NCBI GenBank assembly: GCA_016928395.1
Contig: JAFGKV010000087.1
Span: forward strand, 1 to 8,799
Direction: 5' to 3'
Origin: Candidatus Fermentibacterota bacterium
GTDB taxonomy: Bacteria > JAFGKV01
Length of the DNA: 8,799 nt
Below the pieces are notes generated by a model that was not told where the DNA came from, did no database searches, and worked only from the letters and a program-made list of their open reading frames with translations. Below, in pieces: positions 1,920 through 4,627 of this stretch (position 1 is its first letter; every line of letters starts with the position of its first letter). Made by a program: the position numbers and the translations under genes.

Positions 1920-1982
1920 GCAGCCCGTGTCGGATTTTGTGGTTTGTGTTTCGGTTTTCACTGACCCTATCCGGGGGTGCTG

Positions 1983-3611
1983 ATGGCGACGACGCCTGAT
2001 CGAGTTACTCTCGCGACCCGAACCCATCAGGGTCGCCGGCCCTACAACCAGGATGTCGTGCTCGCGGAGGAGGTCTTCCTCAAGTCAGGAGCCAGAGGCC
2101 ATCTCCTGATCGTGGCCGACGGCATGGGCGGCGCCGCGGCCGGCGAAGTGGCCTCCAGGGTCGCGGCCCATACGCTCCGCAATACCCTGGTTGACTGGGT
2201 TAAACGCAACGACATTGACCCTTCATCGGCAAAGACCGGCCTTCGCCTCGGGTATCGCGCCGCACACGAAGCGGTCCAACAGGAGGCGGCCAAGGACCCC
2301 GCGCGCCAAGGCATGGGAACAACTCTGGTTGCGGCCTTGGTTTGGGCCGATCACTACGTAGTCGCCAATGTCGGCGATAGTCGAGCCTACGTGATCGATT
2401 CCGGCGACATCACGCAGATCACCAAGGATCATTCAGCCGTCCAGGAGATGATCGACCGCGGCGTCATTCAGCCGGAGCACCGCGCGACCGCGCCCATGGC
2501 GCATGCGTTGACCCGGGCCTTGGGAGACTCGCCGGAGCCACCGGAGGTTGACGTGTTCCCTAGGGATGGCGCCTACTCGCTTCACCCGGGCCAGATTCTA
2601 CTCCTCTGTTCCGATGGCCTGGAAAACGGCGTGGACGACGACGCGATCCACGGCCTCGTCTGCGGCGCCCCGAACCTGGAGGACACCGCCGAGGCCCTCG
2701 TGCGCGCGGCATGGCATGGCGGCAGCAGAGACAATATCAGCGTTGCTCTTGTGGAGCGCGGTCATCTCCAACGCCGCCCAGGAAAGGCATCGCTTCCTCC
2801 GCCCATCTCTCGGGCCAAGCCCCGCACACGCCGAAGGCGCCCTTCGTCGATTCCGGCCTTGGTCTTGTTCCTCGTGGCCGCCGGCCTTGGTGCCGCCACC
2901 TGGAAGGTCTGGCACACCACCCAGACCGAGCAGCTGGTTCCATCTCCCCCCTTGTCAAAGGAAGACCAAGAGGGATCAACGGTGCTTCCCCCTTTAGAAA
3001 AGGGGGATCGAGGGGGATTTCCGTCCCCGATGGATGGGGATTTTGGCCCCGACACCGCTTTTGCACAATTCGACTCCGCAGCCCCAGAGAGCTCAACCGC
3101 GGCTACCGTTGCCCCTCCCCCTTTGCAAAAGGGGGATGAAGGGGGATTTCCTTCCCCGACGTCTCAAGAGGATCGCCCGCGCTTACGCAGGGCACCAGAG
3201 GCCCCGGCGAGACCACCGTCTCCCAAGCCCCAAGCACCAACTCCTGTGCCCATCACCGATCCCACTTCCGCTCCGACCGCCGGCACTGCCGTCACCGAAC
3301 CGACTCGAACTCCTCCCCTTACTTTAGAGGGTGACGAAGGTACGACCCAACCATCTCCCCCTTTGCCAAAGGGGGATGAAGGGGGATTTCCATCCCCGCT
3401 CCCCGAGGCGGCGCTCCCGGGAGAACCTGGGGTCGAGCCTCCAACTTCCCCAGCACGAATGCTCCCTGATTCAGTTGCTCCGGCTCGTCCCGACTCTCCT
3501 TCGGCTACAAGTCCGATTGATCCCACGACGTCCGCTCCCGCCGACGCAGCTCAGCCACCTGCCGAACCTCCCGAGCCAGCTCCTTCGACCGAGGCGAACC
3601 CGAACCCATGA
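1983..3611 (+). CDS. Membrane PP2C-type Ser/Thr protein phosphatase with repeat-built tail
   Basis: This 542-residue protein should dephosphorylate Ser/Thr phosphoproteins, most simply those of the kinase at 4754-6547. The catalytic domain spans about 1-258 and carries the PPM metal-binding motifs: NQD (22-24), ADGMGG (45-50), GMGTT, NVGDSRAY (129-136), KDHS, SDG (210-212) and RDN (249-251). All key aspartates are present, so it should be active and Mg/Mn dependent. A strongly basic stretch (KPRTRRRR) precedes one transmembrane helix (about 290-308), giving catalysis inside and the C-terminus outside. The outer tail (about 318-542) is Pro/Ser/Thr-rich, of low complexity, and contains five copies of a PPLxKGDxGGF-like peptide encoded by a dispersed DNA repeat. 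The first start is a GTG at 1977; the ATG at 1983, five bases after GGGGG, is preferred. There is no evidence of frameshift. Confidence 0.95.
   Translation: MATTPDRVTLATRTHQGRRPYNQDVVLAEEVFLKSGARGHLLIVADGMGGAAAGEVASRVAAHTLRNTLVDWVKRNDIDPSSAKTGLRLGYRAAHEAVQQEAAKDPARQGMGTTLVAALVWADHYVVANVGDSRAYVIDSGDITQITKDHSAVQEMIDRGVIQPEHRATAPMAHALTRALGDSPEPPEVDVFPRDGAYSLHPGQILLLCSDGLENGVDDDAIHGLVCGAPNLEDTAEALVRAAWHGGSRDNISVALVERGHLQRRPGKASLPPPISRAKPRTRRRRPSSIPALVLFLVAAGLGAATWKVWHTTQTEQLVPSPPLSKEDQEGSTVLPPLEKGDRGGFPSPMDGDFGPDTAFAQFDSAAPESSTAATVAPPPLQKGDEGGFPSPTSQEDRPRLRRAPEAPARPPSPKPQAPTPVPITDPTSAPTAGTAVTEPTRTPPLTLEGDEGTTQPSPPLPKGDEGGFPSPLPEAALPGEPGVEPPTSPARMLPDSVAPARPDSPSATSPIDPTTSAPADAAQPPAEPPEPAPSTEANPNP
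2946..2978 (+). repeat. Degraded in-frame CCCCCTTT element (copy A in phosphatase tail)
   Basis: Encodes PPLSKEDQEGS. It has the layout of the intact copies but most of the G-runs are broken. It is in the same reading frame as the others, at about residues 322-332. Confidence 0.6.
2988..3021 (+). repeat. In-frame CCCCCTTT element (copy B)
   Basis: A near-intact element encoding PPLEKGDRGGF, followed by PSP, at residues 336-349. Like the intergenic copies it has CGA before the second G-run; the other in-gene copies have GAA there. The + strand frame begins on the first C of the element. Confidence 0.85.
3117..3150 (+). repeat. In-frame CCCCCTTT element (copy C)
   Basis: A near-intact element encoding PPLQKGDEGGF, followed by PSP, at residues 379-392. 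It differs from copy D by two bases over 42 and from copy B by five. Frame and orientation are the same. Confidence 0.85.
3312..3341 (+). repeat. Degraded in-frame CCCCCTTT element (copy E)
   Basis: Encodes PPLTLEGDEG at about residues 444-453. The bases are well diverged but the peptide pattern is retained in the same frame, suggesting an older copy. Confidence 0.5.
3357..3390 (+). repeat. In-frame CCCCCTTT element (copy D)
   Basis: A near-intact element encoding PPLPKGDEGGF, followed by PSP, at residues 459-472. It is closest to copy C. Confidence 0.85.
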
Positions 3612-3680: not shown

Positions 3681-3717
3681 GCGCATTTGAGGTCGCAGTC
3701 TGCGACCTCAAATGCGC
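3681..3717. repeat. Perfect 17-bp inverted repeat (long hairpin arm of a BIME)
   Basis: Arms 3681-3697 (GCGCATTTGAGGTCGCA) and 3701-3717 are exact reverse complements around a GTC loop. The hairpin begins 69 bases after the phosphatase stop. There is no T-tract, though it could still stop or stabilise transcripts. It is followed by CTCCTAAC (3720-3727), a near match to the CTCCTAC foot of inverted REPs, and then by the usual linker and a forward REP at 3752. It therefore appears to occupy the place of an inverted REP hairpin. Confidence 0.85.
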
Positions 3718-3751
3718 CCCTCCTAACTTGGGGAATGCCTTGCACAAACGC

Positions 3752-3775
3752 TGTAGGAGCGCCGTCAGGCGCGAA
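3752..3775 (+). repeat. REP sequence, GCGCC subtype
   Basis: TGTAGGA is followed by stem GCGCC, loop GTCA and stem GGCGC, then GAA. Both stem strands are changed relative to the GCGGC/GCCGC subtype, so pairing is kept. The preceding 24 bases match the linker of the BIME at 4556-4627. Confidence 0.85.
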
Positions 3776-3784
3776 GGGTTTGGG

Positions 3785-3946
3785 TTCGCGGTTGACACCG
3801 CTCCTACCATCGGGAATGTGGTGCACGGACAATGTACGTTCGCAGTTGACACCGCTCCTACCCTGGGGAATGTGGTGCACGGACAATGTACGTTCGCGGT
3901 TGACACCGCTCCTACCCTGAGGAATGTGGTGCACCGACGCTGTAGG
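3785..3946. repeat. 54-bp tandem array of inverted REP plus linker (3 units)
   Basis: Units start at 3785, 3839 and 3893. Each begins with the inverted REP TTCGCGGTTGACACCGCTCC, or a one-base variant, plus TAC, then a linker with GGAATGTGGTGCAC. The first two units differ at only four positions. They end in TGTACG, where an intact BIME would continue into a forward REP. The last unit does continue into the forward REP at 3941. The array is best explained as tandem duplication of a half-BIME. Confidence 0.9.
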
Positions 3947-3964
3947 AGCGGCGTAAGCCGCGAA
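3893..3964. repeat. BIME upstream of the RAYT gene
   Basis: The inverted REP (3893-3915), a 25-base linker and the forward REP (3941-3964) form a 72-bp unit. It has the same layout, orientation and spacing as the unit at 4556-4627 on the other side of the transposase gene. The forward REP has loop GTAA. It overlaps the third unit of the 54-bp array and ends 41 bases before the transposase start. Confidence 0.88.
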
Positions 3965-4005
3965 GATGGCCAGAAGCCGTCAGCAGCGAACCCTGGTCCT
4001 GAACG

Positions 4006-4539
4006 ATGATGCAACACACTCCTGCTCCTGCAGACAAGCCCTGGGTCGGGCGGGAAACCCCTGGGCTCCTTGCCCTCCGCAGAGGCCGGTTCTCGGAGCC
4101 GAACAGGGCATACTTCTTGACGACGGTCGTGCACGAGAAGCGGCCGCTTCTTGCGGGCCGTGTCGGCGAGCGGGTCGCTGAGAGCCTTGTCAGGTGGCAG
4201 GAGGTGGGCGGAATGCCCTTGTTGGCGTTCGTGATCATGCCGGACCATGCCCACATCCTGGGTGTGCTGAGGGATGGTAGTGACCTGGGGCGTGCGTTCG
4301 GTCGGTGGAAGGCGGGGGCGGCGAAGGAAGCGAATGAAGAACTGCGAAGGACGGGTCGGTTCTGGCAATCGGGGTTCCACGATCACGCGGTGAGGAGGAG
4401 CGAGGATCTGCGGGAGATCGCTTCGTATATTGAGGGTAACCCGGTGCGCAAGGGGTTGGTTTCCAGGGCCGAGACGTTCGAGTTGAGCAGTGCGAGCGAG
4501 CGTTTCCGCGACCGGGTTCTGGGATGGGCGCTGATCTGA
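4006..4539 (+). CDS. REP-associated tyrosine transposase (RAYT, Y1/HUH family)
   Basis: This 177-residue protein belongs to the IS200-like Y1 HUH superfamily, whose RAYT branch binds and cleaves single-stranded REP DNA. The HUH pair is H81-A82-H83 in FVIMPDHAHIL. Catalytic Tyr is Y141 in SYIEGNPVRKGL, the characteristic helix. The N-terminal strand RAYFLTTVV (34-42) and the FWQSGFHDHAVR segment (119-130) also fit. The length is typical for the family and all expected motifs are present, so it looks intact. The start is uncertain: ATGATG at 4006 has no clear ribosome site and the first 25 residues lack family features. Near-identical BIMEs lie 41 bp upstream and 16 bp downstream. The gene interrupts the kinase/phosphatase cluster. 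It lacks IS terminal inverted repeats of its own, as is usual for domesticated RAYTs. Confidence 0.92.
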   Translation: MMQHTPAPADKPWVGRETPGLLALRRGRFSEPNRAYFLTTVVHEKRPLLAGRVGERVAESLVRWQEVGGMPLLAFVIMPDHAHILGVLRDGSDLGRAFGRWKAGAAKEANEELRRTGRFWQSGFHDHAVRRSEDLREIASYIEGNPVRKGLVSRAETFELSSASERFRDRVLGWALI

Positions 4540-4555
4540 GCACGAAGGGCATGCG

Positions 4556-4627
4556 TTTGCGGTTGACACCGTTCCTACGTTGGGGAATCTGGTGCGCGGA
4601 CAATGTAGGAGCGGCGTCAGCCGCGAA
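4556..4627. repeat. BIME downstream of the RAYT gene
   Basis: Inverted REP (4556-4578), a 25-base linker GTTGGGGAATCTGGTGCGCG(GACAA), and forward REP (4604-4627) with stem GCGGC/GCCGC and loop GTCA. It closely matches the unit at 3893-3964 and starts 16 bases after the transposase stop. Confidence 0.9.

Follow-up and report, generated by a model that had tools for sequence, protein, structure and literature searches.

Among the described REPtrons, those of group 3 from Pseudomonas, Stenotrophomonas and Thauera come closest to the locus analysed here. They share with it the RAYT family and clade including the WQ motif, the short straight-stemmed REPs in which two bases separate GTAG from the stem, and an arrangement with REPs on both sides of the gene, tandem BIME arrays and REP dimers. 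REPs of this short, straight-stemmed form characterise group 3 (PMC8266576, PMC6006769), and those of subclass 2.5 have a foot plus stem of 10-13 nt (PMC6006769). The E. coli rayT (yafM)/BIME-2 system of group 2 belongs to the same HUH/Y1 fold family, but its REPs are longer and need a bulge, and its protein falls into another clade. Since E. coli rayT is bordered by BIME-2 on both sides (PMC2817692), flanking BIMEs are ordinary for RAYT genes. A further relative on the repeat side is the GTAG-1 family (Di Nocera et al. 2013). In its description (PMC3733652), two unpaired bases separate the stem from GTAG, a 3-base motif lies at the far end, tag-inside (TT) dimers are common and the repeats occur in clusters, all as found here, whereas the GTNA or TTCA loops of our REPs set them apart; the Eisenbacteria phylum is not named in the accessible text.

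The window, i.e. the whole stretch of 8,799 nt that was analysed, belongs to a genome of 4.79 Mb in 343 contigs (G000). Via a genome of the same genus, its host was placed in Candidatus Eisenbacteria (Candidatus Eiseniibacteriota) and is thus non-proteobacterial, which distinguishes the system from the known group 3 REPtrons with their mostly Xanthomonad or Pseudomonad hosts. A brief literature search found no earlier report of a REP/RAYT system in this phylum. The system is known in kind, and the phylum is a new host branch for it. The earlier note had described the locus as lying outside the usual proteobacterial examples; this is right for the host, but GTAG REPs as such were already known from Cyanobacteria, Chloroflexi and the PVC group (PMC3733652). 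For comparison we used a sister-species genome of the same genus (G001), which is 82% complete so that absences in it weigh little, and a genome of the same family (G002).

A gammaproteobacterial contig misplaced into an Eisenbacteria genome during binning would also give such a picture. The nearest non-Eisenbacteria RAYTs are indeed proteobacterial among the matches listed, and contamination of the source genome is estimated at 2.97%. However, the same-family genome encodes homologues of the adjoining PP2C and kinase genes at 61% and 55% identity, respectively, which argues for a genuine contig, the sister genome carries a RAYT of its own, and the REPs are spread over dozens of contigs. We consider misbinning extremely improbable and have rejected contamination for the window contig, as its neighbour genes match the same-family genome. 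At this locus, the contigs of the same-family genome stop about 466 bp past the PP2C gene and about 170 bp ahead of the kinase gene. No PP2C match was found in the sister genome, at its 82% completeness.

The open reading frame at 4006-4539 on the plus strand encodes a protein of 177 amino acids, which we annotate as RAYT/TnpA-REP (HUH Y1 endonuclease). It scores 110.2 bits with the curated RAYT model NF047646 (cut-off 80) and matches PF01797, the Y1 superfamily. PDB 4er8, a RAYT bound to a REP hairpin, is both its best solved relative by sequence (E=6e-9) and the top fold match of its structure model (pLDDT 89.7). The HUH motif is H81-A-H83, the catalytic tyrosine is Tyr141, and W120-Q121 form the WQ motif; H81, H83 and Y141 are invariant or nearly so across 41 homologues. 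The HUH/Y1 protein and its RAYT identity, both proposed earlier from the letters alone, are thus borne out. The motifs DHAH, WQ and YIEGNP deviate from the subclass 2.5 consensus DH[LF]H, WQ and YI[VI]ANP, with only WQ being exact. The surroundings of the gene showed no sigma-70-like promoter.

Being a member of the same Y1 superfamily, the protein might instead belong to an ordinary insertion sequence of the IS200/IS605 kind that has ends of its own. Against this, the IS200 transposase model NF033573 yields only 20.4 bits (cut-off 55), far below its threshold, whereas the RAYT model lies above its own; tnpB is not among the identified genes of the window; the gene is single-copy in the source genome, as is the sister RAYT in the sister genome, rather than present in several near-identical copies; and it is bordered by REPs that are dispersed in the genome. 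An ordinary IS200 transposase was rejected on the model scores, and there is next to no chance that the insertion sequence reading is correct.

In our trees the RAYT of the window clusters with group 3/subclass 2.5, with E. coli group 2 and two group-2-like rows falling elsewhere. Judged by its sequence, it is a RAYT of the Pseudomonas/Stenotrophomonas type. The phylogeny called for in the earlier note therefore places the protein among RAYTs, but contradicts its wording "E. coli-type", as do the short, straight-stemmed REPs. At least 79 non-Eisenbacteria RAYT loci from the genome scan all bear titles that are proteobacterial in a broad sense, including two of delta lineages. A proteobacterial horizontal origin of the Eisenbacteria RAYTs is likely, although the tree does not prove it: one tree supports a mixed set of six rows at 97/87, but proteobacterial monophyly is not rejected by the AU test (p 0.25), and a tree without the long rows leaves the node open. 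When the flanks of 80 related RAYT genes were searched, GTAG/GTGG-tagged palindromes were found around most of the non-Eisenbacteria RAYTs, many of them of the form GTAGGAGCG...CGCGA; about a dozen loci gave no such palindrome with the same finder. In about ten homologues (e.g. L092, L120, L133, L144 and L145), the stop codon of the RAYT gene is overlapped by a GTAG tag (position -1). This overlap is also seen in the sister RAYT (L044), but not in the RAYT of the window.

The gene is embedded in an array of REPs. The 23-nt REP consists of GTAG, GA, a 5-bp stem with a 4-base loop, and GAA; foot (6 nt) and stem add up to 11, inside the subclass 2.5 range. With up to two mismatches, the pattern GTAGGAGCGNNGTNANNCGCGAA matches ten times in the window compared with zero expected from shuffles. 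Two 72-bp REP dimers (REPINs or BIMEs) with GTAG tags inside flank the gene in the same layout and orientation. The upstream dimer at 3893-3964 comprises a minus-strand REP (3893-3915), a spacer (3916-3941) and a plus-strand REP (3942-3964), and the downstream dimer at 4556-4627 has its minus-strand REP, with two mismatches, at 4556-4578, the spacer at 4579-4604 and the plus-strand REP at 4605-4627. The REPs nearest to the gene are hence the plus-strand copy upstream and the minus-strand copy downstream. The flanking BIMEs had been described before, with a linker of 25 bases; presence, layout and orientation stand, but the spacers measure 26 nt. Both dimers fold as hairpins, the upstream one as a single long hairpin (z -3.9 and -5.4 for the two strands, and -4.3 and -3.4 for the downstream dimer), and no known RNA families were found in the window. 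Two tandem half-dimers of 54 bp each (3785-3892) precede the upstream dimer as a direct repeat family. Each starts with a minus-strand REP (3785-3807 and 3839-3861, neither of which had been listed earlier), followed by the spacer and "GTA" without a plus-strand REP, and these two REPs together with that at 3893 make up the 54-bp tandem. Further REPs already named in the earlier note were recovered as well, all on the plus strand: GTAGGAGCGCCGTCAGGCGCGAA at 3753-3775, one between the FHA gene stop (1726) and the PP2C gene (1734-1756), and one at 297-319 that forms a pair (297-350) with tags outside together with an inverted degenerate REP with a TAAG tag at 328-350.

The same REPs are dispersed over the source genome, as the search for further intergenic copies proposed earlier made clear. 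Up to three mismatches being allowed, 120 matches were obtained compared with 5 for the reversed control, and as many REPs lie at contig ends, 120 is probably an undercount. Only 4 of 100 REPs fall into called ORFs, all four being non-canonical, compared with about 71 expected; the simple gene calls behind this overlap missed the PP2C gene, so that the coding fraction is underestimated. The stem is paired at 95.9%, with a covariation score of 0.350 versus 0.139 for shuffled and at most 0.08 for slid alignments, using a REP finder that itself required stem pairing; in exact genome matches, for which the pattern leaves four inner stem positions free, almost all of these are paired nonetheless. 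Tag-inside pairs (n=19) have spacers of 25-31 nt, mostly 25-26 nt and similar in sequence, on several contigs, and a search with the dimer spacer gave 31 matches versus 3 in the control. The REPs thus form dispersed dimers with a conserved spacer, i.e. REPINs. Tandem REPIN arrays with periods of about 83, 86 and 107 bp are present on contigs C241 (L170), C292 (L172) and C198 (L167) of the source genome, respectively, the first two consisting mostly of a GTAG REP paired with a GTTG REP. Per genome, we counted about 98 REP matches in the source genome with its RAYT, 50 in the sister genome with the sister RAYT and 7 in the same-family genome, which has no close homologue; 57 other genomes were essentially devoid of window-type REPs.

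Taken together, the locus of this Candidatus Eisenbacteria genome is very probably a group 3 REPtron, that is, a RAYT gene embedded in a REPIN array of its likely cognate REP family. The features observed directly are the protein family, the number of REPs and their intergenic location, the covariation of the hairpin, the conserved dimer spacer, and a filled and an empty array (see below). That the RAYT binds, cleaves and disperses the REPs would follow by analogy to work on TnpA-REP of E. coli and Stenotrophomonas. In single-stranded DNA, e.g. during replication, a REP would fold into the hairpin with GTAG, GA, 5-bp stem and 4-base loop and be bound by the RAYT, whose HUH site would hold a metal ion while Tyr141 cuts near the REP. 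Strand transfer would then put REPs, mainly as 72-bp dimers, into other intergenic sites.

The pairing of REP classes with RAYTs is less straightforward. The sister RAYT is flanked by GTACGAGCGGCTTCAGCCGCGAC and GTAGGAGGGCCTTCAGGCCCGAC; the GTAGGAGGGCCTTCAGGCCCGAC class has 44 copies in the source genome and only 5 in the sister genome, and as far as seen no RAYT of the source genome is flanked by it. Window-type REPs that share the spacer are found in the sister genome, too. As REP sub-classes and RAYTs do not correspond one-to-one between the two species, the cognate pairing is inferred; the mismatch is reminiscent of what has been described in Pseudomonas as "orthoswitch" or as loss of a RAYT (PMC3686654). 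In addition, many REPs carry GTTG or GTAC tags, a feature that distinguishes them from those of known group 3 REPtrons. The S. maltophilia enzyme no longer cleaved REPs with such tag changes (PMC8266576), so the RAYT of the window may differ in specificity, or these copies may be inactive.

The source genome encodes a second RAYT (C207:2809-3282, L168) with the motifs DHVH, WQ and YIVANP, the Tyr motif of which is exact for subclass 2.5. It is surrounded by GTAGGGGAGGG...CCCTCCC and GTAGGGGCGACC...GGTCGCCC repeats. The second GTAG REP family has 159 exact matches in the source genome versus 1 in the control, 8 versus 6 in the sister genome and none in the same-family genome. This coexistence, like the class mismatch between the sister species, would fit REPs that are not moved by the RAYT of the window at all, being retained as structures in RNA or DNA or dispersed by a different RAYT, with the gene merely sitting in a REP-rich region. 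Such a scenario appears improbable to us, for most homologues found lie amid the same kind of REPs, the second RAYT is located amid clearly different ones, and REPs are scarce in the family member that has no close homologue.

The idea of the earlier note that the direct BIMEs could let the gene be moved or lost together with them is supported indirectly by the sister species. The sister RAYT (contig C309, JALOPK010000031.1, of Candidatus Eisenbacteria bacterium isolate Prado127) is 51% identical to that of the window, and both group together at 100/99 support, yet they occupy unrelated loci in the two genomes. It is located in a REPIN array next to a gene for dodecin. In the source genome, the orthologous array (C153, L222) lies on one continuous contig and consists of three tandem REPIN units with no RAYT. 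A 21-bp REP stem (L222:1238-1258) occupies the place where the sister genome has a segment of 530 bp (L044:1015-1544); the flanks align at 81-84% towards dodecin/phosphoesterase and at 72-84% on the opposite side. Read along the coding strand, the insert spans from a GTAG to the next GTAG, the second of which overlaps the stop codon. The gene was thus gained or lost at this site; gain in the sister species, loss in the source species and differential loss of paralogues are all compatible with the difference. The dodecin reading beside the sister RAYT (L044:1703-1894) carries one in-frame stop, at which an X was put in the search query, and represents a pseudogene or an assembly error.

These features, namely related RAYTs at unrelated loci, the filled and the empty array, and the GTAG-to-GTAG borders, raise the question if the RAYT gene moves autonomously as an element of its own, hopping from one REPIN array to another with REPs or GTAG tags as its ends, its position in the window being one such insertion. 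We regard this as unlikely: the RAYT is single-copy in each genome, loss in the source genome or differential loss of two ancestral paralogues gives the same pattern, evidence of tnpA-REP mobility is lacking in the literature (PMC8266576), and REPtrons are deleted in many E. coli strains (PMC3733652). Slightly more doubtful still is a general mobility of the RAYT genes of this genus between REPIN arrays. If it applied, REPs would be the sites at which the transposase gene itself, and not just REPINs, enters and leaves. In the REPtron model that we favour, the single-copy gene amid direct REP dimers could be gained or lost along with its array, as the orthologous arrays of the two species illustrate.

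Group 3 RAYT/REPIN systems have been described mostly from relatives of Pseudomonas and Xanthomonas until now; here, a complete one is seen in a distant uncultured phylum. The sister-species pair, in which an orthologous REPIN array carries a RAYT in one genome and lacks it in the other, offers a natural case for distinguishing movement with the REPs from mere loss, as well as for following the rate at which REP tags and their RAYT change together.

A separate repeat, CCCCCTTTnnAAAAGGGGGATGAAGGGGGATTT, is found in the PP2C gene (ORF 1977-3611). At 2986-3398 it runs in-frame through the tail of the protein, encoding PPLxKGDxGGFPS in three clear copies, with a partial one at 2944. The PP2C homologue of the same-family genome has a shorter frame of 366 amino acids. 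The repeat also occurs twice between genes, at 489 and 1847.
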